NCBI RefSeq assembly: GCF_029626265.1
Contig: NZ_JARUBN010000001.1
Span: forward strand, 4,839,001-4,903,000
Direction of reading: 5' to 3'
Source of the DNA: Micromonospora sp. WMMD1102
Lineage (GTDB): Bacteria; Actinomycetota; Actinomycetes; Mycobacteriales; Micromonosporaceae
DNA: 64,000 nt
Positions 2,273-35,131 of this stretch are shown piece after piece. The translations under genes were made by a program, and so were the position numbers. Every line of letters begins with the position of its first letter. Positions within the stretch are counted from its first letter, which is position 1. The notes beneath the pieces were generated by a model, which was not told the DNA's origin, made no database searches, and saw only the letters and a list, made by a program, of their open reading frames with translations.

Positions 2273-3817
2273 ATGTCAGACGAGCGCACCGACATCACGG
2301 CGGAGCCGGCAGAGGTGGAGACGGCCCGGACGGAGTCGCACGACCCGGACTTTCCGGAGAAGTTCCTCGAGTTCATGCGGCAGGGCTGGCGGGACAGCAC
2401 CCTGCCGGTCGGCCCCCGCCCCGAGGTCCCCAACCACGCCAAGCGGCGCTCGGCGCTCTCCGCCGCGCTGCCCGGCGAGACCCTGGTGATCCCGACCGGC
2501 CCGGAGAAGGTACGCGCCAACGACACCGCGCACCGGTTCCGCCCCGGCAGCGACTTCGTCTACCTGACCGGCGACCACGAACCGGACAGCGTGCTGGTGA
2601 TGCGCCCGAACGGCTCCGGCCACGACGCGGTGCTCTACATGCGGCCCCGCTCGTCCCGGGACGGCGACGAGTTCTTCCGCAGCCGAAACGGCGAGCTGTG
2701 GGTCGGCCGCCGGCACACCCTGACCGAGAAGGCGACCGAGCTGGGCATCGAGACCGCGCCGCTGTCCGAGCTGCCGGCCGCGCTGGCCGACTGCGCCCCG
2801 GGGCGGACCCGGGTGCTGCGCGGGCTGGACCCGTCGGTGGACGGCGCGGTGCGGCCGTACGACCCGCCGCAGGGCGGGACCGGGCAGGGCGGGGCGGCGG
2901 AGGGCGGAAAGGCCGACGGCGCCGAGCGGCTCGGCCGGGACCGCGAACTCGCCGCGCTGCTCAGCGAGCAGAAGCTGGTCAAGGACGAGTGGGAGATCGC
3001 CCAGCTCCAGGAGGCGGTCGACGCCACCGTACGCGGCTTCGAGGACGTCGCCCGGGTGCTGCCGGCCGACCGGGCGGTCAGCGAGCGGCTGCTGGAGGGG
3101 ATCTTCGGGCTGCGGGCCCGGCACGACGGCTACGACGTCGGCTACAACTCGATCGTCGGGGCCGGCGAGCACGCCACGATCCTGCACTGGATCCACAACA
3201 CCGGCATCACCCGCCCGGGTGAGCTGCTGCTGATGGACATGGGGGTGGAGGGGCGCAACCTCTACACCGCCGACGTGACCCGGGTGCTGCCGGTCTCCGG
3301 CACCTTCTCGCCGCTGCAACGCCAGGTCTACGACATCGTGTACGCCGCCCAGCAGGCCGGCATCGACTTCGTCCGCCCCGGCGTGACCTTCAAGGACGTG
3401 CACCGGACCTGCATGCGGGTGCTCGCCGAAGGGCTGGCCGAGCTGGGGCTGCTGCCGGTGAGCGTGGACGAGGCGATGGACGAGACCTCGACGGTCTACC
3501 GCCGGTGGACGCTGCACGGCTTCGGGCACATGCTCGGGCTCGACGTGCACGACTGCGCCAACGCCCGCAAGGAGAACTACCGGGAGGGCACCCTCGGCGA
3601 GGGCTACGTGCTGACCGTCGAACCGGGGCTCTATTTCCAGCCCGAGGACGACCTGGTGCCGGCGGAGCTGCGCGGGATCGGCATCCGGATCGAGGACGAC
3701 GTACTGGTGACGGCCGACGGCGCGGTAAACCTCTCGGCCGGGCTGCCCCGGGCGGCCGACGAGGTCGAGGCGTGGCTGGCCGAGCAGCGGGAGGCCGGGT
3801 TCCGGCTGCCGGGCTGA
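2273..3817 (+). CDS. pepP: Xaa-Pro aminopeptidase (M24B)
   Basis: This 514-aa dimetal aminopeptidase P removes an N-terminal residue that precedes proline. The ATG at 2273 follows a GAGGAAGGA ribosome site. Residues about 55-190 form the aminopeptidase-P N-terminal domain (ANDTAHRFRPGSDFVYLTG). Residues about 245-500 form the pita-bread domain, with metal ligands visible in order: Asp in MDMGVEG, Asp in YTADVTR, His in HGFGHMLG, Glu in TVEPGLY and Glu in IRIEDDV. A Gly-rich insertion (PQGGTGQGGAAEGG) separates the two domains. It is divergent from asnB, with a 216-bp gap for both promoters. Confidence 0.93.
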   Translation: MSDERTDITAEPAEVETARTESHDPDFPEKFLEFMRQGWRDSTLPVGPRPEVPNHAKRRSALSAALPGETLVIPTGPEKVRANDTAHRFRPGSDFVYLTGDHEPDSVLVMRPNGSGHDAVLYMRPRSSRDGDEFFRSRNGELWVGRRHTLTEKATELGIETAPLSELPAALADCAPGRTRVLRGLDPSVDGAVRPYDPPQGGTGQGGAAEGGKADGAERLGRDRELAALLSEQKLVKDEWEIAQLQEAVDATVRGFEDVARVLPADRAVSERLLEGIFGLRARHDGYDVGYNSIVGAGEHATILHWIHNTGITRPGELLLMDMGVEGRNLYTADVTRVLPVSGTFSPLQRQVYDIVYAAQQAGIDFVRPGVTFKDVHRTCMRVLAEGLAELGLLPVSVDEAMDETSTVYRRWTLHGFGHMLGLDVHDCANARKENYREGTLGEGYVLTVEPGLYFQPEDDLVPAELRGIGIRIEDDVLVTADGAVNLSAGLPRAADEVEAWLAEQREAGFRLPG

Positions 3818-3853
3818 CCCGGCCGGTACGGCGACGCCGCTCGACCGTCCCAC

Positions 3854-3901
3854 GTTCACCTCGATCGTCTTCACGTTGTTCGCCTCGATCGTTTTCACGT
3901 T
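3854..3901. repeat. Two tandem 24-bp direct repeats upstream of the RyR/TrkA-N gene
   Basis: Two abutting 24-bp copies (3854-3877 and 3878-3901) differ at two positions and each contains the palindromic core CGATCG. They lie 70-117 bp upstream of the GTG at 3971, where an operator or promoter would sit. The regulatory role is inferred. Confidence 0.5.
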
Positions 3902-3970
3902 CGCTGTCGGCAGACCGCGACGGTACGATGGCGCTGCGTCGTCACACCGGAGGAGCAGGAGAGGTGTGGT

Positions 3971-5704
3971 GTGCCCGGACACAGCCTCGGCGAGCCGTCC
4001 CGCGTACCGACCAGGAGTGTGCTCCGGCCGATCTTCGCGCTCGCCGGCGCGGTCGCCTTCGTCTGTGGCTACATCGGGCTCTACCAGCACATCGACCGGG
4101 TCGGCGGCTACGGGACCGACCCGTTCGACCTTTTCTACTACGACCTACAGCTCTTCGTGCTCGGGTCACCCCCGCTGGACGAGGGCGGGCCGTTCCCGCC
4201 GCTGCTGGACTTCGCCCGGTTCGCGGCGCCGGCCGTCACCGCGTACGCCGTGGTGGAGGCGTGCCGGCTGCTCTTCGCCACCGAACTGCGCCGGCTGCGC
4301 GACCGAAACGCCCGCGGACACGTCATCGTCTGCGGCGACGGCTTGGTCGCGGACACCCTGGCCCGCCGGCTCCAGGCCGCCGGACACCGGGTGGTGGCAG
4401 TCCGCTCCGACGACACCACCCCGGCCGGCTCCGGGCAGGTGGCGCGGGCGGCCCGGGATCCGGCCGTGCTGCGCGGCGCCGGCATCGGGCGGGCCAGGGC
4501 GGTCTACGCGTGTACCGACGACAGCGCCACCAACGCGGCGATCGGGCTGGCCGCGGCCCGGCACGGCCGTTCCCCGCTGGCCGTCTACGCCCAGATCGCC
4601 GACCCGGAACTCTGCCTCGCCCTACAGGCCCGGCACCTCGGGTTGGCCCGGCACCCCGGCGCCCGGCTGGACTTCTTCAACATCGACGACCTGGCCGCCC
4701 GGAAACTCTTCGCCGAGGACCCGCTGACCGCCGTCGACGGTCGGCCGCCCCGGGTGGTGGTGCTCGGCGCCACCGCCTTCGGCCGGGCGGTACTCGTCGA
4801 ACTGGCCCGCCGCTGGCGGGTACGCGACCCGCACGGCGCCCGGCGGGTGCCGCTGGTACTCGTCGACGAGGCGGCCACCGAGGCGGCGGCCCAGCTGACC
4901 CACCGCTACCCGTTCCTGTCCCGGGTCTGCCGGATCGTCCCGCTCGACGGCGGCCTCGGCGAGCTGCTCGACCAGCTGCCCCGAGCCGGATTCCCGCTCC
5001 CGCCGGACAGGGTCTTCATCTGCTACGACGACGAGGAGCGGGCGCTGAAGACGGCACTCACCGCCGAGCAGCTCTGGCACGGCGGCCCCGGCTCGATGGT
5101 GGTCCGGCTGGACCGGCTGGCGAACCTGCGGGAGGCGTTCGGCAGCGGGCACGGCCTCGGCATCCTCGACGACCTCTCCGGTGCGCTCCGGCTCTACGGC
5201 GTGGTGCACGCCGCCTGCGATCCGGCGCTGATCGGGGACGACCTGGTGGAGCGGCTGGCCCGGGTGATCCACGAGAGTTACGTGGTGGCCCGGCGCCGGC
5301 ACGGCGAGCGGCCCGGCGGCAATCCGGCGCTGGTGCCCTGGGAGGAGTTGCCGGAGTCGCTGCGCCGGGCGAACCGCGCCCAGGCCAAGGACATCGGCCG
5401 GAAGCTGCGCGAGCTGGGCTGCGCCCTGTCGCCCCGGGTCGGTCCGGCTGACGAGCACGCCCTGAAGGAGCCCGAGATCGAACGACTCGCCGTCCTGGAA
5501 CACCAGCGTTGGCTGGCGGAGCAGGTGGCGAGCGGGTGGCGGTACGCGCCGGACCGGGACGACGAGCGGCGCCTCCATCCGGCATTGAGCCCCTGGGAGG
5601 ATCTACGGGAAGATCTCCGGGAGCGTAACCACGAGGCGGTCCGGGAACTCCCGGTCATCCTGGCCGACGCGGGCTTCCGGATCGTCCGCGTCGGGCACGC
5701 GTAA
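3971..5704 (+). CDS. Membrane protein with tandem TrkA-N-like Rossmann folds and C-terminal RyR repeats
   Basis: This 577-aa protein starts at a GTG preceded by GGAGGAGCAGGAGAGG. Two hydrophobic segments (about residues 17-36 and 85-105) flank a stretch containing GGYG. Then come a Rossmann nucleotide-binding fold (HVIVCGDGLVADTLARRL, from about residue 117) and a second one (RVVVLGATAFGRAVLVEL, from about 260), like the TrkA-N/RCK folds of ion-transport regulators. The C-terminal third carries RyR-type repeats: one beginning IHESYVVARR, and a clear one with LEHQRWLAEQVASGW and HPALSPWEDL. In bacteria, RyR domains occur with nucleotide-signalling domains. The SLOG-like gene starts 20 bp downstream, so the two probably form one unit. 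A ligand-gated membrane sensor or effector is an inference; the ligand and any conducted ion are unknown. Confidence 0.75.
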   Translation: MPGHSLGEPSRVPTRSVLRPIFALAGAVAFVCGYIGLYQHIDRVGGYGTDPFDLFYYDLQLFVLGSPPLDEGGPFPPLLDFARFAAPAVTAYAVVEACRLLFATELRRLRDRNARGHVIVCGDGLVADTLARRLQAAGHRVVAVRSDDTTPAGSGQVARAARDPAVLRGAGIGRARAVYACTDDSATNAAIGLAAARHGRSPLAVYAQIADPELCLALQARHLGLARHPGARLDFFNIDDLAARKLFAEDPLTAVDGRPPRVVVLGATAFGRAVLVELARRWRVRDPHGARRVPLVLVDEAATEAAAQLTHRYPFLSRVCRIVPLDGGLGELLDQLPRAGFPLPPDRVFICYDDEERALKTALTAEQLWHGGPGSMVVRLDRLANLREAFGSGHGLGILDDLSGALRLYGVVHAACDPALIGDDLVERLARVIHESYVVARRRHGERPGGNPALVPWEELPESLRRANRAQAKDIGRKLRELGCALSPRVGPADEHALKEPEIERLAVLEHQRWLAEQVASGWRYAPDRDDERRLHPALSPWEDLREDLRERNHEAVRELPVILADAGFRIVRVGHA

Positions 5705-25908: not shown

Positions 25909-26706
25909 GTGCCCGACGCCTTCTACCTGCCCACCGACGACCCCGAGCGGCACCTGTCCACCCCGGCGACCGAGGGACCGTGGAGCAGTGGCCTGCAACA
26001 CGGCGGGCCGCCGTGCGCGCTGCTGACCCGGGCCGTGGAACGGACGCCGAGTTCGCTGGACGGGCCGGCCCAGGTCAGCCGGATCACCGTCGACTTCCTC
26101 GGCGCGGTGCCGGTCGACGAGGTCACCGTACGGGCCGCCGTGGCCCGGCCGGGGCGCTCGGTCGAACTGGTCGAGGCCGAACTGCACGCCGCCGGGCGGG
26201 TGGTGTTGCGGGCCCGGGTGTGGCGGATCCGGCGTACCCCGGTGGAGCTGCCCGCCGAGGTGTTCGGCACCGCCGTGCCGCCGCCGCCCCGGCCGGCCGA
26301 GCCGTCCCGGTTCACCGAGCCGCGCTGGCAGGTCGGCTACCTGCGGGCGATCGACTGGCGGTTCGTCGAGGGACACTTCGAGCGCCCCGGCCCGGCGTCG
26401 GCCTGGGCGCGGCAGCGGATCCCGCTGGTGGCCGGCGAGGAGCCGAGCCCGCTGCAACGGGTCGCCCTGCTCGCCGACTCCGGCAACGGGCTCAGCCGGC
26501 TGCTGGAGATGGAGCGGTGGTGGTTCATCAACACCGAGCTGACCGTGCACCTGCACCGGCAGCCGAGCGACGACTGGCTGCACGTCTCGGCCGCCACCAC
26601 CCTGGACCCGCAGGGGTCCGGACTGGCCGAGACGGTGCTCTCCGACGCCGCCGGGCCGCTGGGCCGGGGCGCCCAGGCCCTGATGGTCGGCCGCCGGTCC
26701 GGCTGA
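25909..26706 (+). CDS. Acyl-CoA thioesterase-like protein (double hotdog)
   Basis: This 265-aa protein starts at a GTG 8 nt after GGGGAGGAGA. Segments LQHGGPPCALLTRAVE, RITVDFLGAVPVDEVTV and GRSVELVEAELHAAGRVVLRA are those of the TesB-like/4HBT_3 thioesterase family of actinobacteria with two hotdog folds. It probably hydrolyses an acyl-CoA. Its stop codon lies inside the target-site duplication of the adjacent IS1380-type element, so the coding sequence is complete but any native terminator has been displaced downstream. Confidence 0.85.
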   Translation: MPDAFYLPTDDPERHLSTPATEGPWSSGLQHGGPPCALLTRAVERTPSSLDGPAQVSRITVDFLGAVPVDEVTVRAAVARPGRSVELVEAELHAAGRVVLRARVWRIRRTPVELPAEVFGTAVPPPPRPAEPSRFTEPRWQVGYLRAIDWRFVEGHFERPGPASAWARQRIPLVAGEEPSPLQRVALLADSGNGLSRLLEMERWWFINTELTVHLHRQPSDDWLHVSAATTLDPQGSGLAETVLSDAAGPLGRGAQALMVGRRSG

Positions 26707-26707
26707 G

Positions 26708-28341
26708 CCTGGATCCACCGGTGGTTGGTGAGGTGGGCGTGCCGGTGTGTGGGGATTGACCGCCGCTGATGGGTGGGGGTGCTGGGCAGGTCGGGTCTGC
26801 CGGTCTGTCCGGCTTGCTCCGTGGTCCTGGTCGTGGTGGTCGGTGTTGGTGTGGTTAGCCGGCGGGTGGGGGCAGGGCGCGGATGCGGTGCAGGGCGGTG
26901 AGGAGCGCGTCGGCCCAGGGCCAGGCGCGGGGTAGGTGTAGGTGCAGGCGGCGGGCGGTGCGGGTGAGGCGTGCGCCGACGGTGTAGATCTTGCGGCGGA
27001 CGGTCTTGGCGGTGACGCGGGGCAGGCTGAGGCCGAGGCGGGCGGTCCAGCGGGTCAGGTTGTGGGCGATGGTGTTCAGGACCAGCCAGGCGGCGTTGCC
27101 GCCGAAGCTTTTGGTGGGTAGGTGGGCCAGGCCCATGCCGTGTTTGAGGTCGCGGATGGCTAGTTCGACCTCGGCGTGGCGGCGGTGGTCGGCTTCCAGG
27201 TCGAGCATCGGCCCGTCGCGGTCGGTGATGAACGGGTGGTAGTCGTAGACGGGGAACAGAGCCTGTTGGGCGGCGCGGCCGGTGTTGCGGGCCAACGCGT
27301 CGGTGCAGGGGGTGCGGCGCACGATCAGCCGGACCGGGGCCGGGTTGGGCCGGTCGTGGCCGTGGGTGTCCTGGGTGAACGGGGTCCAGGTGATCTCGGT
27401 GACGGCGGCGCCGGGTAGGAAGTAGTCGATCGGAGTCCAGGCGGTGTCGTCGATGGCGGGGATGACGTGTTTCAGGTTGCCGATCATGCGGGCGCCGATG
27501 GAGAACCGCACTCCGGCGGCCCGGCAGGCGGCGACCACGTCGTGCAGGTAGAACCCGGAATCCATCCGGAACACGAGGTTCCCGGCTGCGCCGGCGGCCC
27601 GCACACGGCCGATGGTCTCCTTGATGAACACCGGCGCGGCGGTGGCGTCGTTGGACCGGCCCCGCCGCAGTCGGGCGTGCGCGACGTCGCCGGTGCCGGC
27701 GATCACCGCGAGCAGGGGGTGATAGCCCCGCCGTCCGGTGCGCATCACCTCCCGCGCGCCGGCTTTGCCCAGCCCGTACGTCTCACACAGCGTGGAGTCG
27801 ATGTCCACCGTCACCGACTCGGTCAGGCCGGGTGACGCCCCGGCGGCGACCGCCCGGGCCAGCAGCCGGCGGGCGACCACATCGAGTTGCCGGGCGTGGT
27901 TGAACCCGAACGCCCGCAGAAACGACCCGACCGTCGAGGGCGCCGCCACCCGGTGACCCAGCACCGCCTGGGTCGACCCGGCCCGCAACGCGGCCACATC
28001 ATCGATGCAGTCCCCACCGGCCAGCAGCGAGTGGATCACCGTCAGGCACTTGTCGTCCGGATGCGCGCCCAGACTGCCCGGCACCGTCACATGCTCCCGC
28101 AACAGCCCAGGCAGACCCAGCCGCTGCCCCAACGACGCCGCCACCAGCAGACCCGCATCCGACACGGCATTACCGTCATCCGCGCTGACAACAAGCCGAT
28201 CCAAGCTGTGCGATGCTGACACCACGAGGGTGCTCCTTGGGTAGGTGAATCATTGGTGTGGTAACCACGATTTTCCCTGCCCAGGAAGCACCCTCACTCG
28301 TTCAACACGCCTCACCCCGACCACACCCCGGTGGATTCAGG
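26708..28341. mobile_element. Complete IS1380-family insertion sequence
   Basis: The 1,634-bp element has related terminal inverted repeats starting CCTGGATCCACCGG at the left end and CCTGAATCCACCGG at the right end (read inward). It is flanked by a 5-bp direct repeat CTGAG (26703-26707 and 28342-28346), the target-site duplication. One intact transposase gene fills it. Identical duplications and an open transposase suggest a fairly recent, possibly active insertion. Confidence 0.88.
26855..28225 (-). CDS. IS1380-family transposase
   Basis: This 456-aa DDE-type transposase is full length. Visible landmarks are SDAGLLVAASLGQRLGLPGL, the first Asp region VTVDIDSTLCETYG, the second FRMDSGFYLHDVV, and the C-terminal Glu region HRRHAEVELAIRDLKHGMGL followed by the basic tail. 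It is the only gene in the element; the start lies 117 bp from the right-hand IS end. No frameshift or internal stop was seen, so mobility is plausible. Confidence 0.92.
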   Translation of the reverse strand: MVSASHSLDRLVVSADDGNAVSDAGLLVAASLGQRLGLPGLLREHVTVPGSLGAHPDDKCLTVIHSLLAGGDCIDDVAALRAGSTQAVLGHRVAAPSTVGSFLRAFGFNHARQLDVVARRLLARAVAAGASPGLTESVTVDIDSTLCETYGLGKAGAREVMRTGRRGYHPLLAVIAGTGDVAHARLRRGRSNDATAAPVFIKETIGRVRAAGAAGNLVFRMDSGFYLHDVVAACRAAGVRFSIGARMIGNLKHVIPAIDDTAWTPIDYFLPGAAVTEITWTPFTQDTHGHDRPNPAPVRLIVRRTPCTDALARNTGRAAQQALFPVYDYHPFITDRDGPMLDLEADHRRHAEVELAIRDLKHGMGLAHLPTKSFGGNAAWLVLNTIAHNLTRWTARLGLSLPRVTAKTVRRKIYTVGARLTRTARRLHLHLPRAWPWADALLTALHRIRALPPPAG

Positions 28342-28423
28342 CTGAGGCCGCCGGTCCGGCGTGGGCCGGGGGGAGCCAGGCAACCCAAGACGTACGTACG
28401 GATTGCATGCCGGGTCGTCGCCT

Positions 28424-28442
28424 GGCACCATCGGATGGTGCC
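28424..28442. promoter_or_regulatory. Palindrome overlapping the acnR start codon
   Basis: GGCACCAT (28424-28431) and ATGGTGCC (28435-28442) form a perfect 8-bp inverted repeat around CGG, with the ATG start inside the right arm. It could be an autoregulatory operator or an RNA hairpin masking the start. Inferred. Confidence 0.4.
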
Positions 28443-29016
28443 CAGGGTAAGCCAGAACCAGCTCGACGCCCGCCGCCAGGAAATCCTCGGTGCGGCGCGG
28501 GCCTGCTTCGCCCGGCACGGCTACGAGGGCGCCACGGTGCGCCGGCTCGAAGAGGCGACCGGGCTCTCCCGGGGAGCGATCTTCCACCACTTCCGGGACA
28601 AGGACTCCCTCTTCCTCGCCGTCGCCGAAGACGACGCCGCCGCCATGGTGACCACGGTGGCCCGCAACGGCCTGGTGCAGGTCATGCGCGACCTGCTGGC
28701 CGGCGCTACCTCGCCGGACACCACCGGCTGGCTGGGCAGTCAACTGGAGGTGTCCCGGCGGCTGCGCACCGATCCCGAGTTCGCGAAGCGCTGGGCCGAA
28801 CGCTCGGCGAGTCTCGCCGAGGCCACCCGGGAGCGGCTGGCCCGGCAGCGGGACGCCGGAGTGCTCCGCGACGACATACCGATCGAGACGCTGGCCCGCT
28901 TCCTGGAGCTGGCCTACGACGGGCTGGTGCTGCAACTGGCGATGGCCCGGCCGGCCGGCGACCTCGGCCCGGTGCTGGACCTGGTGGAGGAGGCGGTCCG
29001 CCGGCCGGGCCGCTGA
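28435..29016 (+). CDS. acnR: TetR-family regulator, AcnR-like aconitase repressor
   Basis: The 193-aa product starts at ATG 28435 (a GTG follows at 28438). The N-terminal helix-turn-helix region RQEILGAARACFARHGYEG, RRLEEATGLSRGAIFHHFRD and the ligand-domain segments DSLFLAVAEDDAA, SQLEVSRRLRTDPEFAKRW and LAYDGLVLQLA resemble, from memory, corynebacterial AcnR, which represses aconitase and responds to citrate and iron state. In corynebacteria acnR lies beside acn; here it is 8.7 kb away, with an insertion sequence directly upstream that may have separated it from its native promoter region. Target assignment is by homology. Confidence 0.75.
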   Translation: MVPRVSQNQLDARRQEILGAARACFARHGYEGATVRRLEEATGLSRGAIFHHFRDKDSLFLAVAEDDAAAMVTTVARNGLVQVMRDLLAGATSPDTTGWLGSQLEVSRRLRTDPEFAKRWAERSASLAEATRERLARQRDAGVLRDDIPIETLARFLELAYDGLVLQLAMARPAGDLGPVLDLVEEAVRRPGR

Positions 29017-29191
29017 GCCCGATCGCCCGATCCGACGCGATCCGGGCCGGGCGGAGCCGGGCCGGGCCGGGCCGCCCGATGCGGACCGGGCCGGTCTGTC
29101 GGGAGGTTTACGCAACCGCGACCGGAGCGACTGGCGTACCGGATCCACAATGGTGACAGTCCGAGACCTCCGTACGCCTGGAGTCACCCCC

Positions 29192-30118
29192 ATGGACGAA
29201 CTGCTAGCGGTACGGGCCGAGACCTGGGGCGTCCCCGGGCCGGTCTTCCTGACCCTCTATCTCACGACCGCCGGGCTGATCCTGCTCGGCACCCTGGCGC
29301 ACCGGCTGGTCGCGTTCGCCGGACGCCGACCGCCCGGCGCCGAGCAGCGCCACCCCGTCGAACTCGCCTGGCTCGCCGGCGGCGACCAGCTCGCCCTGCA
29401 CGCCACGCTCGGCGGGCTGCGCGCCGCCGGTGCGGTCGGCACGGCGGAGCGGCACCGGCTGGCCCAGACCGGGCCGTTGCCGTTCCGGGCCACCCGGCTG
29501 GACGCCGCCGTGCACCGGGCGGCCGGCCAGGGCGTACCCGGACGGGCGCTCGGCAACGACCCGCAGGTCCGTACCGCCCTCGCCGACCTCCGGGCCGACC
29601 TGGTGCGCAGCGGGCTCGCCCTGCCCGACTCCGCCCGACCGGCCGCCCGGGTCGGGCCGGTGCTGCTGCTCGGGCTGGTCGCGGTCGGCCTGGCCCGGCT
29701 GGTCGCCGGGCTGGCCGCCGACCGGCCGGTCGGCTATCTCGTGCTGAGCCTGCTGGTGCTGGCTCCGACCGGTGTGGTGCTGCTCTGCGCGGTTCCCCGC
29801 CGGACCCGGGCGGCGAAGGCCCTGTTGCGCGACCTGCGGCGGCAGCACCAGCACCTCGCGCCCCGGCACTCGCCGGCCTACGCCACCTACGGCCCGGCCG
29901 GCGCCGCGCTCGGCGTCGCGCTGTTCGGCACGGCCGCCCTCGTCGCGTTCGACCCGGGGTTCGCGGTCGAGGCGGAGGTGCAGCGCGCGATGACCGCGTC
30001 GGCGACGAGCAGCGGCGGCTGGACGACCGCAAGCACCGGCGGCGGATCCGGCGACAGCTCCGGTGACGGTGGGGGCGGCTGCGGGGGCGGCTGCGGCGGC
30101 TGTGGCTGCGGCGGATGA
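29192..30118 (+). CDS. TIGR04222-type membrane protein with Gly/Cys-rich tail
   Basis: The 308-aa product (ATG 29192, with GGAG 8 nt upstream) has three hydrophobic segments: about residues 14-34, 147-190 (two closely spaced spans) and 238-258. The N-terminal half fits the actinobacterial TIGR04222 domain. The tail is a Ser/Gly run ending GGGGCGGGCGGCGCGG, with Cys297, 301, 304 and 306. It is directly followed by a DUF692 (MNIO) enzyme and its partner, enzymes that oxidise Cys-containing peptides in known systems. The tail is therefore a candidate substrate, or a metal-binding site. Both are inferences. Confidence 0.75.
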   Translation: MDELLAVRAETWGVPGPVFLTLYLTTAGLILLGTLAHRLVAFAGRRPPGAEQRHPVELAWLAGGDQLALHATLGGLRAAGAVGTAERHRLAQTGPLPFRATRLDAAVHRAAGQGVPGRALGNDPQVRTALADLRADLVRSGLALPDSARPAARVGPVLLLGLVAVGLARLVAGLAADRPVGYLVLSLLVLAPTGVVLLCAVPRRTRAAKALLRDLRRQHQHLAPRHSPAYATYGPAGAALGVALFGTAALVAFDPGFAVEAEVQRAMTASATSSGGWTTASTGGGSGDSSGDGGGGCGGGCGGCGCGG

Positions 30119-30140
30119 CGACGACCGGAGGAGACCGCCG

Positions 30141-31037
30141 ATGACGACCGGAGGAAGCGGCCCGGGCGGGGGGCGCACGATTGGCGCCCCGACACCAGAG
30201 GGCCGGCGCGGCATTCCGGCGCCGGAGGGGGGTTACGGCGTCGGGATCGGCTGGCGGCCCGAGATCGCCGGCTTCGTCGCCGACCTGCCCGGACTGCGCT
30301 TCGTCGAGGTGATCGCCGAGTCGATCTCCGCCACCGGGCCGCCACCGGGCCTCGCCGAGCTGCGCGGCCGAGGCGTGACGGTGGTGCCGCACGGAGTACG
30401 GCTCTCCCTCGGCGGCGCCGAGCCGGTCGAGCCGGCCCGGGTACGCCAGTTCGCCCGCGCCGCCGAACTGCTCGACGCGCCGCTGGCCAGTGAACACATC
30501 GCCTTCGTCCGGGCCGGCGGGATCGAGGCGGGGCACCTGCTGCCGTTGCCGCGTACCCGGGAGGCGGTCGACGCGGTGGTCGCAAACGTGGCCCGGGTAC
30601 GCGCCGAACTGCCCGTGCCGCTGGCCCTCGAACCGATCGCCGCCATCTTCGACTGGCCGGACGACGAGCTGGACGAGGCGGACTTCCTCACCGAGATCCT
30701 GGACCGCAGCGGCGCGCTGCTGCTGCTCGACATCGCCAACGTCTACGCGAACGCCCGCAACCGGGGCGCCGACCCACTCGACCTGCTCGACCGGCTGCCG
30801 CTGGACCGGGTCGGCTACGTACACGTCGCGGGCGGGGCGGCCAGCGACGGGATCTACCACGACACGCACACCGACCCGGTCCCGCCGGAGGTGCTGGAGC
30901 TGGTCACCGAACTCTGCGCCCGGCACCGGCCACCGGCACTGCTGCTGGAACGGGACGGCCACTACCCGCCGGCCGCCGCGCTGCGCGCCGAACTCGACGC
31001 GATCGCCACCGCCGCCGGCTACCCGGCGGTGACCTGA
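30141..31037 (+). CDS. DUF692-family MNIO (multinuclear iron oxidative) enzyme
   Basis: The 298-aa TIM-barrel protein belongs to the DUF692 family that includes MbnB and TglH. Expected metal ligands are all visible in order: His in VVPHGVRLSLG, His in LASEHIAFV, Glu in ALEPIAA, Asp/Asn in LLLDIANVYANA, His in YVHVAGG, Asp and His in DTHTDPVPPEV, and Glu in LLERDGHYP. Family members use two or three irons and O2 to rearrange cysteine or other residues in peptides. A disordered N-terminal tail of about 30 residues is extra. It lies 22 bp after the Gly/Cys-tailed membrane protein and abuts the partner gene, so a modification cassette is likely. Substrate inferred, not shown. Confidence 0.85.
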   Translation: MTTGGSGPGGGRTIGAPTPEGRRGIPAPEGGYGVGIGWRPEIAGFVADLPGLRFVEVIAESISATGPPPGLAELRGRGVTVVPHGVRLSLGGAEPVEPARVRQFARAAELLDAPLASEHIAFVRAGGIEAGHLLPLPRTREAVDAVVANVARVRAELPVPLALEPIAAIFDWPDDELDEADFLTEILDRSGALLLLDIANVYANARNRGADPLDLLDRLPLDRVGYVHVAGGAASDGIYHDTHTDPVPPEVLELVTELCARHRPPALLLERDGHYPPAAALRAELDAIATAAGYPAVT

Positions 31038-31038
31038 G

Positions 31039-31563
31039 TTGACCGATCGGAGCAGCGGTACGCTCGGTCTGCCACCGCAGGCGGCCGGGACGCTTGCCGA
31101 CCGGCAGGCCGCGCTGGTCGCCTCGCTGGTCGCCGGGGCACCGCTGCCGCCGGGCTTCGACGCCCGGCGGGTCGGGGTGGCCCGGTCGGCGCTGCTGCAC
31201 AAGCGCTCGACCGAGGTGGCCCGGCAGTGGCCGCTGCTCGCCGCCGGGCACGGCCGGAACTGGCGGAGCGTCTTCGCGGCCTGGGCGGCGGACCGGCCGA
31301 CCTCGGGCTCGGTCCGGGACGGCTGGGACCTGGCCCGCCTGTTGGCCGCCGGGCGGACGCTGCCGGCACCGGCCGCCGAGGAACTCGCGGTCCGGGAGGC
31401 CGGCTGGCGGTACGACGGCCGCACCCCGCCCCGGCGCCGCCGGCTGCCGGCGCTGCGCCGGGCCGGAAACGTGCTCGTGGTGCAGGTCGCCGGCCGGGTA
31501 CGGGTGTGGCCGGTACCCGGCCGCCGCGACCCGAAGATCGACTGGTCGCCGTCCGGGTCATAG
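31039..31563 (+). CDS. DUF2063-like MNIO partner protein
   Basis: This 174-aa protein starts at a TTG one base after the MNIO stop codon, indicating coupled translation. Its N-terminal helices (LADRQAALVASLVAGAPLPP, FDARRVGVARSALLHKRSTE, RQWPLLAAG) resemble the DUF2063-type partner proteins found beside DUF692 enzymes, which recruit the peptide substrate. The C-terminal half has a basic RRRRLPALRRAG segment and a short strand-rich end. No enzyme motif is seen. Its position as third gene of the unit supports the partner role. Confidence 0.65.
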   Translation: MTDRSSGTLGLPPQAAGTLADRQAALVASLVAGAPLPPGFDARRVGVARSALLHKRSTEVARQWPLLAAGHGRNWRSVFAAWAADRPTSGSVRDGWDLARLLAAGRTLPAPAAEELAVREAGWRYDGRTPPRRRRLPALRRAGNVLVVQVAGRVRVWPVPGRRDPKIDWSPSGS

Positions 31564-31573
31564 GATCCGTTCC

Positions 31574-32335
31574 ATGGATCTCGGACTCGCCGACCGGGTG
31601 TACGTGTTGACCGGCGCATCGAAGGGACTCGGCCTCGCCACCGCACGCGCCCTGGTGGCCGACGGCGCCCGGGTGGTGCTCTCGGCCCGGGACCCGGAGC
31701 AGGTGGCCACGGCGGCCGGACAGCTCGGCCCGGACGACCGGGTGCTGGGACTTCCCGCCGACCTGGCCGACCCGGACACCCCGGCCCGGCTGGTGGAGAC
31801 CGCCCTGGAGCGGTTCGGCCGGCTCGACGGTGCGCTCGTCTCGGTCGGCGGGCCGCCGCCGGGCAGCGCCGCCCGGGCCACCGACGCGCAGTGGCGGGAC
31901 TCCTTCGAGACCATCTTTCTCGGCACCGTCCGGGCAGCCCGGACGATCGTGGCGGCCCTGCCCCCCGGTGGCGCGCTGGCCCTGGTGCTCTCCAACTCGG
32001 CCCGGTCGCCGATCCCGGGACTCGGCATCTCCAACGGGCTGCGGCCGGGACTGGCCGGGGTGGCCAAGGACATGTCCGACGAGTACGGCCCGCGCGGCGT
32101 ACGGGTGGTCAGCCTGTTGCCGGGCCGGATCCTCACCGACCGCAACCGGGAACTCTTCGCTGCCGGCGGAGACCCGGAACGTGCCCGCGCCGACGCGGAG
32201 GCGGCGATTCCGCTACGCCGGATCGGTGACCCGGACGAGTTCGGCCGGGTGGCCGCGTTCGTGCTCTCCCCCGCCGCCAGCTATCTGACCGGGGTCACCA
32301 TCCCGGTCGACGGTGGCGCGCTACGCGGTCTCTGA
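31574..32335 (+). CDS. Short-chain dehydrogenase-like protein with altered active site
   Basis: The 253-aa Rossmann protein has the NAD(P) motif TGASKGLG (residues 13-20), LSARD and the C-terminal YLTGVTIPVDGG. The catalytic Ser is present (LVLSNSAR, about residue 140). The usual YxxxK is replaced by Ser153-N-G-L-Arg157 (GISNGLRPGLAG). A related subgroup of SDRs with SN..R at this site exists, so this may be a lineage trait, but ordinary ketoreductase chemistry is doubtful. It stands just downstream of the MNIO unit. Confidence 0.8.
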   Translation: MDLGLADRVYVLTGASKGLGLATARALVADGARVVLSARDPEQVATAAGQLGPDDRVLGLPADLADPDTPARLVETALERFGRLDGALVSVGGPPPGSAARATDAQWRDSFETIFLGTVRAARTIVAALPPGGALALVLSNSARSPIPGLGISNGLRPGLAGVAKDMSDEYGPRGVRVVSLLPGRILTDRNRELFAAGGDPERARADAEAAIPLRRIGDPDEFGRVAAFVLSPAASYLTGVTIPVDGGALRGL

Positions 32336-32470
32336 CCTGACCTGCTCCCAGCGCGCACCCTGCCCTCGCCCGCCGCACCCGACGCCGCGCCGCTCCGGGC
32401 CGACTCGTCCGGGCCGACTCGTTCCGGACCGCTGCCGGCCGGATAGAGTTGCCAGCCGTTGTCCTCGGAG

Positions 32471-32593
32471 GTGAGCGTCATCGCAAGCGTCAGCGTGGTG
32501 GTACTCGCCGTCGGTGGGCTCTGCTGCCTGATGGCGGTGACCGCGGTGGTGATGGGAGTGGTATGGGCGGCCCGGAAGAACCGCGGGCCCTGA
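32471..32593 (+). CDS. Tiny single-pass membrane protein
   Basis: A 40-codon frame starts at a GTG directly after GGAG and encodes a strongly hydrophobic helix (SVIASVSVVVLAVGGLCCLM, then AVTAVVMGVVWAARKNRGP) with a basic C-terminus. Its last 31 bases overlap the glycosylase start in another frame. The hydrophobic-then-positive pattern and the overlap argue for a real small gene. The ribosome-site spacing is poor, so confidence is moderate. Confidence 0.45.
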   Translation: MSVIASVSVVVLAVGGLCCLMAVTAVVMGVVWAARKNRGP

Positions 32594-33198
32594 CGCCGGC
32601 CCGGCGGGCGCGGCCGCCCCGACCGACCCCGGCCGAGGTGGCGGCGGCGACCGACCGGCAGCTCCCCGACCTGATCGCCCCGGACCTGGACGTACTCTTC
32701 TGCGGGATCAACCCGGGCCTCTACTCGGCCGCCACCGGCTGGCACTTCGCCCGGCCCGGCAACCGGTTCTGGCCGGCGCTGCACCATGGCGGCTTCACCC
32801 CGCACCTGGTCGACCCGGCCGACCAGGCCGAACTGCTCGGTTACCGGCTCGGCATCACCAACCTGGCGGCCCGGGCCAGCGCGCGGGCCGACGAGTTGGG
32901 CCGGGACGAACTCGTCGAGGGCGGCCGGCTGCTGGTCGGCAAGGTCCGCCGCTACCGGCCGCGCTGGGTGGCGGTACTCGGCGTCACCGCCTACCGGACG
33001 GCGTTCGAGCGGCGTACGGCCCGGATCGGCCGGCAACCGGAGACGCTCGGCGGGGCCCGGTTGTGGGTACTGCCGAATCCGAGCGGGCTGAACGCGCACT
33101 TCACCGCTGCCGGGCTGGCCGCCGAGTTCGCGGCGTTGCGGGCGGCGACCCTGGCGGAGTCGGTCAGACCGGGTCGTAGTCGGGACGCGGCATCGTGA
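32563..33198 (+). CDS. mug: G/U mismatch-specific DNA glycosylase
   Basis: This 211-aa base-excision enzyme removes uracil or thymine opposite guanine. The active-site motif FCGINPGLYSAATG (the GINPG of Mug/TDG) is followed by HFARPGNRFWPALHHGGF and the C-terminal WVLPNPSGLNAHF. An Arg/Pro-rich extension of about 25 residues precedes the domain. GGGAG lies 5 nt before the ATG. Its end overlaps the 3' end of the convergent ABC exporter by 35 bp. Confidence 0.92.
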   Translation: MGGPEEPRALTPARRARPPRPTPAEVAAATDRQLPDLIAPDLDVLFCGINPGLYSAATGWHFARPGNRFWPALHHGGFTPHLVDPADQAELLGYRLGITNLAARASARADELGRDELVEGGRLLVGKVRRYRPRWVAVLGVTAYRTAFERRTARIGRQPETLGGARLWVLPNPSGLNAHFTAAGLAAEFAALRAATLAESVRPGRSRDAAS

Positions 33199-35131
33199 TC
33201 ACCGGCTCGGGGCCGACCGCGTCGACGTACGGCTTCGGGGAGTCGACGACGGCGAACTGCGTCCGGTACAGCTCGGCGTAGAGACCGCCGACGGCGACCA
33301 GCTCGTCGTGCCGGCCCCGCTCCACGATCCGTCCGCCGTCCAGCACCAGGATCTGGTCGGCCTCGCGTACGGTCGAGAGCCGGTGCGCGATGACCAGCGC
33401 CGTACGCCCGCTCAGTGCCACCGAGAGCGCCCGCTGCACCGCCGCCTCCGACTCGGAGTCGAGGTGTGCGGTCGCCTCGTCGAGGATCACGATCGACGGG
33501 GCCTTGAGCAGCAGCCGGGCGATGGCGATGCGCTGCTTCTCGCCCCCGGAGAACCGGTAGCCGCGCTCGCCGACCATGGTGTCGAGCCCGTCCGGCAGCG
33601 AGCGGACCAGCTCCGCCACCTGGGCGCCGCGCAGTGCCTCCCAGAGTTCGTCGTCGGTCGCGTCCGGCTTGGCGTAGCGCAGGTTCTCGGCGATCGTCTC
33701 GTGGAACAGGTGCGAGTCCTGGGTGACCACGCCGATGGTGTCGCGCAGCGAGTCGAGGGTGGCGTCCCGGACGTCGACGCCGCCGACCCGGACCGCCCCG
33801 TCGGTGACGTCGTAGATCCTTGAGACCAGCATCGAGGTGGTGGACTTGCCGGCTCCGGAGGGGCCGACCAGCGCCACCATCCGACCGGGTTCGACGGTGA
33901 ACGAGACGCCGCGCAGCACCGGCTCGTTGACCGTACGCTCCAGGGTGGCGACCTCCTCCAGCGAGGCCAGCGACACCTCGGCGGCGCTCGGGTAGCGGAA
34001 CCGCACGTCGTCGAACTCCAGCCGGCCGGCGCCGCGCGGGATCGGCGCCGCGTCCGGCTTCTCGGCGATCGACGGGGTCAGGTCGAGCACCTCGAAGACC
34101 CGGTCGAAGGAGACCAGCGCGCTCATCACGTCCACCCGGACGTTGGAGAGCGCGGTCAGCGGGCCGTAGAGGCGGGTGAGCAGCAGGGCGAGCGTGACCA
34201 CGGTGCCGGCGCTGACGTTGCCCTGCACCGCGAGCCAGCCGCCGAGGCCGTAGGTGAGCGCCTGGGCCAGCGAGGCGACCAGCAGCATCGCCACGAAGAA
34301 GGTGCGGGAGTACATCGCGGACTGGATGCCGATGTCGCGGACCCGTTCGGCCCGGTCGCCGAAGCGCCGCGCCTCGACCTCGGGCCGGCCGAAGAGCTTG
34401 ACCAGCAGTGCCCCGGCCACCCCGAACCGCTCGGTCATGGTGGCGTTCATCTTGGCGTCGAGGTCGTAGGACTCCCGGGTGATCTCGGCCAGCCGGCGGC
34501 CGACCCGGCGGGCCGGGATGATGAAGATCGGCAGCAGTACCAGGGAGAGCGCGGTGATCTGCCAGGAGAGCGTGAACATGACGGCGGCGGTGAGCACCAG
34601 CTGGATGATGTTGCTGACCACCCCGGAGAGGGTGCTGGTGAAGGCCCGCTGCGCGCCGGTCACGTCGTTGTTGATCCGGCTGACCAGGGCCCCGGTCTGG
34701 GTCCGGGTGAAGAACTGCAACGGCATCCGCTGGACGTGGTCGTAGACCCGGGTCCGCAGGTTGAGGATGATCCCCTCGCCGATCCGGGCCGAATACCAGC
34801 GCTGGGCCAGCGAGAGCAGCGCGTCGGCCACCGCCAGGCCGGCGATCACCACGGCCAGCCGGATCACCAGACCGGCCGCGTCCGAGCCGCCCCGGGAGAT
34901 GGCGTTGATCACGTCTCCGGCGAGGACCGGGGTGGCCACCCCGATGATCGCGGCGAGCACCACCGTGACCAGGAACACCGCGATGTCGCTCCGGTAGGGC
35001 CGGGCGAACTCGACCACCCGGCGCACGCTGCGCCGGGTCACCCGGTGCGCGGTCACCTCGTCCCGGTTGCGCAACGAACGCAGCATGTTCCAACCGCCCA
35101 TGCTGGCACCGCCACCCATCGGGTTCACCAC
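33164..35131 (-). CDS. ABC exporter, fused permease and ATPase (multidrug/lipid type)
   Basis: This 655-aa half-transporter dimerises. Six transmembrane helices lie between about residues 55 and 345 (SDIAVFLVTVVLAAIIGVA, LVASLAQALTYGLGGWL). The ATPase carries Walker A GPSGAGKST, Q-loop VVTQDSHLF, signature FSGGEKQR, Walker B IVILDEATAHLDS and switch His in IAHRLST. An insertion near residue 395 splits the early ATPase strands. I chose the GTG at 35131 because GGGAGG lies 6 nt upstream. Substrate unknown. Confidence 0.92.
   Translation of the reverse strand: MVNPMGGGASMGGWNMLRSLRNRDEVTAHRVTRRSVRRVVEFARPYRSDIAVFLVTVVLAAIIGVATPVLAGDVINAISRGGSDAAGLVIRLAVVIAGLAVADALLSLAQRWYSARIGEGIILNLRTRVYDHVQRMPLQFFTRTQTGALVSRINNDVTGAQRAFTSTLSGVVSNIIQLVLTAAVMFTLSWQITALSLVLLPIFIIPARRVGRRLAEITRESYDLDAKMNATMTERFGVAGALLVKLFGRPEVEARRFGDRAERVRDIGIQSAMYSRTFFVAMLLVASLAQALTYGLGGWLAVQGNVSAGTVVTLALLLTRLYGPLTALSNVRVDVMSALVSFDRVFEVLDLTPSIAEKPDAAPIPRGAGRLEFDDVRFRYPSAAEVSLASLEEVATLERTVNEPVLRGVSFTVEPGRMVALVGPSGAGKSTTSMLVSRIYDVTDGAVRVGGVDVRDATLDSLRDTIGVVTQDSHLFHETIAENLRYAKPDATDDELWEALRGAQVAELVRSLPDGLDTMVGERGYRFSGGEKQRIAIARLLLKAPSIVILDEATAHLDSESEAAVQRALSVALSGRTALVIAHRLSTVREADQILVLDGGRIVERGRHDELVAVGGLYAELYRTQFAVVDSPKPYVDAVGPEPVITMPRPDYDPV

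Follow-up and report, generated by a model that had tools for sequence, protein, structure and literature searches.

Introduction

MNIO enzymes (DUF692) bind two to three irons and oxidise peptides. In MbnBC, TglHI and ApyHI the MNIO is found with a partner protein, and the substrates are short peptides. Here we analyse a set of three genes that likewise pairs an MNIO with a partner, from a 64,000-nucleotide stretch of the genome of Micromonospora sp. WMMD1102 (assembly GCF_029626265.1, contig NZ_JARUBN010000001.1, positions 4,839,001-4,903,000). We refer to this whole stretch as the window and give coordinates as window positions. At 29192-31563 on the plus strand, the gene for a membrane protein of the TIGR04222 family is followed by the MNIO gene and then by the open reading frame (ORF) of the partner. 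Judged by genomic association, the Gly/Cys-rich C-terminal tail of the membrane protein is the best candidate for the substrate of the enzyme.

Gene sets of this kind have been described before. Antoine et al. 2025 (PMC12452194; this and the other papers cited by PMC number are represented here by the available parts of their text) proposed that in Actinomycetota MNIOs may modify TIGR04222 proteins with Cys-rich C-terminal tails, and described PME-type 2 partners for them. Their sets agree with the window cassette in the membrane protein family, the enzyme family, the gene order and a Cys-rich tail predicted to lie outside. PME-type 2 genes occurred in at least 10% of their TIGR04222 gene sets, many sets having no partner, and PME-type 2 partners are also found in the TglH and ApyH gene sets (PMC12452194). 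Elsewhere, TIGR04222 is mentioned briefly for a bacteriocin cluster of Pseudonocardia (PMC5183585), and our literature searches turned up no experimental test of the TIGR04222-MNIO hypothesis.

An initial annotation of the window had reported a Cys-tailed TIGR04222 protein, an MNIO and a partner gene starting one base later, and had proposed that they might form a novel oxidative cassette. The genes, their positions and their family names proved correct, and the tail holds its place as the best candidate substrate. The novelty does not hold: PMC12452194 already describes the arrangement, the idea of the candidate substrate, a tail lying outside and the class of the partner. Our additions are a near-universal partner in linked loci, the fusion of MNIO and partner in the TIGR04222 context in Streptomyces, a fixed Cys-Gly-Gly (CGG) end of the tail and explicit counts of linkage. 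We found no mention of the CGG end or of the fusion in the available text of PMC12452194.

The cassette also resembles the captophorins, that is, bufferins, oxazolin and fontiphorin (HvfABC, BufABC, FonABC). Both combine an MNIO, a DUF2063-like partner and a multi-Cys substrate, which in the window is a candidate one; in both, the Cys residues are mostly followed by Gly and export likely follows modification. Captophorins, however, are small precursors with Sec signals, whereas the candidate substrate here is not small, being a polytopic protein of 308 residues and four helices. Their partners are of PME-type 1 and bear a DUF2063 Pfam signature, which the window partner lacks. The 5-thiooxazole formed on Cys and the copper binding of captophorins and bufferins could be extended to the window tail only by analogy.

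Results and Discussion

To count tails we used 142 loci, comprising 80 MNIO loci from named genomes and 62 other stretches, two from the window's own genome. Matches that covered fewer than 120 profile positions or scored 25 bits or less were dropped, and so were entries that duplicated another over their last 150 residues, along with four unlinked proteins truncated by a contig end. Two entries were retained: L029, in which the reading frame of the tail is broken, and L122, which lies at a contig edge and is probably linked. At least two Cys within the last 45 residues were present in 86 of the 88 TIGR04222 proteins encoded directly upstream of an MNIO. A CGG terminus was found in 79 of these 88 proteins, as against 3 of 23 unlinked ones (one of the three being L122), while tail composition alone would lead to such an end in 1-2% of cases. 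Homologue tails consist mostly of Gly and Ser, and Gly directly follows 300 of their 342 Cys. Tail length and make-up vary among the linked proteins, yet the CGG end persists. Tandem copies further upstream (n = 11) had at least two Cys in nine cases and the CGG end in seven. Five loci outside Micromonosporaceae and Streptomyces contain both genes, and a CGG end occurred in four of them (L187, L188, L189, L191).

The window protein scored 138.6 bits with the TIGR04222 (near_uncomplex) model of NCBIfam, for which the cut-off is 43, and its hydropathy profile has four peaks, in keeping with the several transmembrane segments of the family. In the AlphaFold model (mean pLDDT 84.3) disorder begins near residue 280 and takes in the tail. 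There are 8 Lys/Arg and 1 Asp/Glu in the loop that precedes the last helix, and 1 Lys/Arg and 4 Asp/Glu in the tail. The predicted topology is N-out with four transmembrane helices and the C-terminal tail outside.

The enzyme matched PF05114 at 261.7 bits against a cut-off of 25, over profile positions 1-261 of 263, and has relatives in the PDB (8hci, 3bww). Among 116 aligned sequences, E164, D197, H228, D241, H243 and E270 were invariant in all 70 rows reaching the region, and N200 was kept in 66 of the 70. The conserved metal-site residues are present, including counterparts of N175, D242 and H244, which are essential in HvfB (PMC13419390); the correspondence with HvfB residues was inferred from the 3bww alignment and the same paper. 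The nearest MNIO loci among the named genomes are from Plantactinospora, at 91 and 88% identity.

The window partner had no match in Pfam or NCBIfam. It follows the MNIO directly, has no DUF2063 Pfam signature and adopts a DUF2063-like fold related to NGO1945 (3dee), all of which are traits of PME-type 2. Just one of 30 partner homologues had a DUF2063 Pfam match, a weak one (E 0.018), and homologues carry PF26136, the SCO6045-like C-terminal domain. The homologue in L007 is 80% identical to the window partner and that in L016 is 64% identical over 138 residues; the latter has the same species and length as the PME-type 2 model B of PMC12452194 (WP_091237309, M. matsumotoense, 158 aa). Where a linked locus extended 450 bases or more beyond the MNIO, a partner came next in 86 of 86 cases; of four loci with a shorter downstream stretch, three had no partner. 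Our Micromonosporaceae-centred set thus differs from the gene sets in the available text of PMC12452194, and so do the Streptomyces loci, where the partner is fused. Partners also stood beside 11 of the 25 MNIOs that were not counted as TIGR04222-linked.

In all ten Streptomyces loci (genus code g50, L177-L186) a single ORF encodes both the MNIO and the partner domain. We take g50 to be Streptomyces because, wherever an organism is named for the 120 best homologues of the fusion in L184, it is a Streptomyces. Since all 120 best homologues listed carry PF05114 and PF26136 on one protein, the fusion itself is already in databases. SCO6045, the namesake of PF26136, is presumably such a fusion too, judging by its older UPF0276 name, a name that Streptomyces fusions also bear. 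HvfB depends on its partner to reach the active diiron state, and HvfB joined artificially to HvfC retains activity (PMC13419390); the natural fusions fit both observations. SCO6045 was among the genes of S. coelicolor raised by peroxide (3.01-fold), alongside cysteine-synthesis genes, and the response was lost without HbpS-SenS-SenR (PMC4991794).

We think it reasonably probable that the three genes constitute one modification cassette, in which MNIO and partner oxidise the tail cysteines before they cross the membrane. The two proteins would form a cytoplasmic complex, as we infer with support from the natural fusions. This complex would engage the freshly made TIGR04222 protein at its disordered Gly/Ser/Cys tail, after translation and before or during membrane crossing, and would use O2 to oxidise the tail cysteines. 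The analogy of HvfB, BufB and other Cys-oxidising MNIOs (PMC13097082, PMC13419390) makes 5-thiooxazole the probable product; this four-electron oxidation would lower the mass of each Cys by about 4 Da and would include the Cys of the terminal CGG. Once outside the membrane, the finished tail might act as a tethered brush that binds metal or is redox-active, with copper, one step further along, as the leading guess.

We also entertain a more specific version, though tentatively and at a little under an even chance. It holds that the MNIO-partner complex modifies the tail of a chromosomally conserved polytopic membrane protein instead of the precursor of a ribosomally synthesised and post-translationally modified peptide, that it recognises or acts on the fixed CGG, that the result is a brush of heterocycles tethered permanently to the membrane, and that in Streptomyces the complex is one polypeptide. 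Should the tail be modified, the reach of MNIO chemistry would go beyond small peptides and take in membrane proteins. A gene block that is common and conserved in actinobacteria would also acquire a function, which would probably concern the handling of metals or redox at the cell surface. A clear question of cell biology arises as well, namely how a cytoplasmic enzyme gains access to a tail that finishes on the outer side. With the fixed CGG end and the natural fusions, the published hypothesis can be put to a direct test.

Co-occurrence of TIGR04222 with MNIO bears the association out. Among 200 Micromonosporaceae genomes, TIGR04222 was matched in 150 at E 0.001 (137 above the family cut-off) and MNIO in 134, and 133 of the 134 MNIO genomes also had a TIGR04222 match, the exception being G173. 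An MNIO lay within 3 kb of 123 of the best 150 TIGR04222 matches listed, downstream and on the same strand in all 123; viewed from the enzyme, 116 of 149 MNIO rows had a listed TIGR04222 match within 3 kb. Across 396 Actinomycetota genomes from 237 genera, TIGR04222 was present in 19, MNIO in 20 and both in 15 (Fisher p 1.1e-19, a descriptive value, as genomes are not independent draws).

Several observations, which concern ancestry, the tails and the enzyme, weigh against a tail-modifying cassette. As to ancestry, a tree of 139 domains built with tails excluded (L190 being represented by one of its upstream copies with a CGG end instead of the copy nearest the MNIO) had five changes of linkage and 13 of the CGG end. 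For linkage and the CGG end only three independent pairs could be formed on branches with support, which is not enough to reach significance; a second tree gave too few pairs as well. The counts thus show a strong tail-linkage pattern, but one that is tied to ancestry and involves few independent evolutionary events. That scarcity of events also favours a rival reading, in which Gly-rich, low-complexity tails gain and lose Cys neutrally and the association comes from co-inheritance in a conserved chromosomal block. The cassette does lie in such a block: in 69 full-length loci, TetR was syntenic in 68, the downstream short-chain dehydrogenase (SDR) in 66 and a uracil-DNA glycosylase in 61. These loci were picked by MNIO similarity and describe relatives of the cassette, not genomes at large; in those relatives the cassette is a conserved chromosomal block and not like a mobile cluster. 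Neutral drift does not, however, sit well with the co-occurrence in the 396 genomes sampled from 237 genera, with the altered gene order and fusion in Streptomyces, or with an end that stays fixed while the tails vary, and we regard it as very improbable.

As to the tails, 10 of the 23 unlinked proteins with an intact end had at least two tail Cys, and 12 had none. L006, the second TIGR04222 copy of the window's genome, has a Cys tail and no adjoining MNIO; conversely, L075 is linked to an MNIO and has no Cys-rich tail. In L190 the copy nearest the MNIO stops in frame without CGG, which is found only on two upstream copies. In Streptomyces, TIGR04222 comes after the fused enzyme and not before it, and of eight MNIO-linked proteins six (L178-L182, L184) have no Cys tail, the other two having long Cys/Ser tails. 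Absence of Cys tails from most MNIO-linked TIGR04222 proteins was what the initial annotation had named as evidence against itself; the Micromonosporaceae counts given above speak in its favour and the two of eight in Streptomyces against it. Because six of the eight lack a Cys tail, Cys modification alone does not explain the association, and, with L075, L006 and the second MNIO of the window's genome, these cases mean that tail modification cannot account for the family as a whole.

These exceptions could be accounted for if MNIO and partner acted on some other substrate, with TIGR04222 as a membrane platform, exporter or receptor and the Cys tail coincident or plainly metal-binding. The six Cys-less proteins near a fusion favour this, as does a protein of about 280 aa between the fusion and TIGR04222 in L178. 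So does a conserved small Cys-containing protein ending in CPVCEWQEAQRTACSG: four of ten Streptomyces loci (L178, L179, L185, L186) encode it upstream of the fused MNIO, at a distance of 2.0-2.8 kb. The latter looks like an unrelated zinc-ribbon protein and is a possible substrate in those loci. In addition, the second MNIO of the window's genome stands by a TOMM-type protein with no adjoining TIGR04222 match. Near the window MNIO, a search for an alternative small Cys-rich precursor, also suggested by the initial annotation, found none convincing at 26000-35000, most matches being out-of-frame ORFs in a scan that is noisy at high GC. The retention of CGG in the linked proteins of the Micromonosporaceae set likewise argues against another substrate, an explanation that we find unlikely.

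As to the enzyme, the window MNIO missed the NCBIfam equivalog cut-offs for BufB, HvfB, ApyH, ChrH and MbnB alike, the best score being 176.4 against 310 for MNIO_BufB; in this it differs from MbnBC and ApyHI. With all five cut-offs missed, its chemistry cannot be read from the equivalogs. Nor was there a copper gene among the eight neighbours scanned. The tail might remain unmodified, binding metal or forming disulfides, with the enzyme directed instead at residues other than Cys in the same protein or at the C-terminus of the tail. MNIOs can modify Asp, Asn and Phe (PMC12452194), and unlinked Cys tails exist. Yet it is Cys that is the common MNIO-target residue in the Gly/Ser tails, making up about 8% of them, and its last copy stands at a fixed place; a non-Cys target seems to us improbable. 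Oxidation of the tail cysteines by MNIO and partner stays the reading that we prefer. The features of the locus are collected in Table 1.

Table 1. Positions of the cassette genes, the tail and the flanking genes in the window.
Feature	Position	Strand	Evidence or remark
TIGR04222-domain membrane protein, 308 aa	29192..30118	+	NCBIfam E 2.4e-40
Gly/Cys-rich C-terminal end GGGGCGGGCGGCGCGG, candidate substrate, finishing in conserved Cys-Gly-Gly	30068..30115	+	Sequence; CGG end in 79/88 MNIO-adjacent homologues
Ribosome-binding-like GGAGGAG ahead of MNIO	30127-30133	+	Sequence
MNIO (DUF692, MbnB_TglH_ChrH), 298 aa	30141..31037	+	PF05114 E 8.3e-78
Partner, DUF2063-like (PME-type 2), 174 aa, TTG start	31039..31563	+	One base past MNIO stop
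TetR-family regulator, upstream neighbour	28435..29016	+	PF00440 E 3.4e-16; syntenic in 68/69 loci
Short-chain dehydrogenase (SDR), downstream neighbour	31574..32335	+	PF13561 E 6.3e-40; syntenic in 66/69 loci

The start of the TetR gene was assigned to the ATG of MVPRVS, and its product is possibly a regulator of the cassette or a mere neighbour. A scan for promoters and terminators found nothing and is uninformative in DNA of such high GC content, and PADLOC returned no anti-phage system match for the three proteins of the cassette. On the minus strand at 26858-28225 lies a DDE transposase gene (PF13701) that is absent from all 69 compared loci, adjoined by a pair of 20-nucleotide inverted repeats (28226-28245 and 28276-28295). 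The element has probably been inserted next to the TetR gene only recently.

The second MNIO of the genome lies outside the window, at about 1902500-1908700 of G000:C1 (L005, L223). It adjoins a TOMM-type leader-binding protein (SagB/cyclo_dehyd_2), ORFs of 228 and 269 aa and a GPP34 protein, and the locus looks like a hybrid peptide cluster of azoline type and MNIO.

Tandem TIGR04222 copies ahead of a single MNIO were seen in L150, L170, L171, L173, L174 and others, often with CGG on just one copy. L190 has three TIGR04222-type copies in series before the MNIO (3688-5268), and an out-of-frame Cys-rich stretch ending in CGGGCSS directly precedes the enzyme. Two short TIGR04222-like proteins of Streptomyces, in L193 and L196, end in CGGGGGGD and GGCGGD with one tail Cys each, in stretches where no MNIO was matched.
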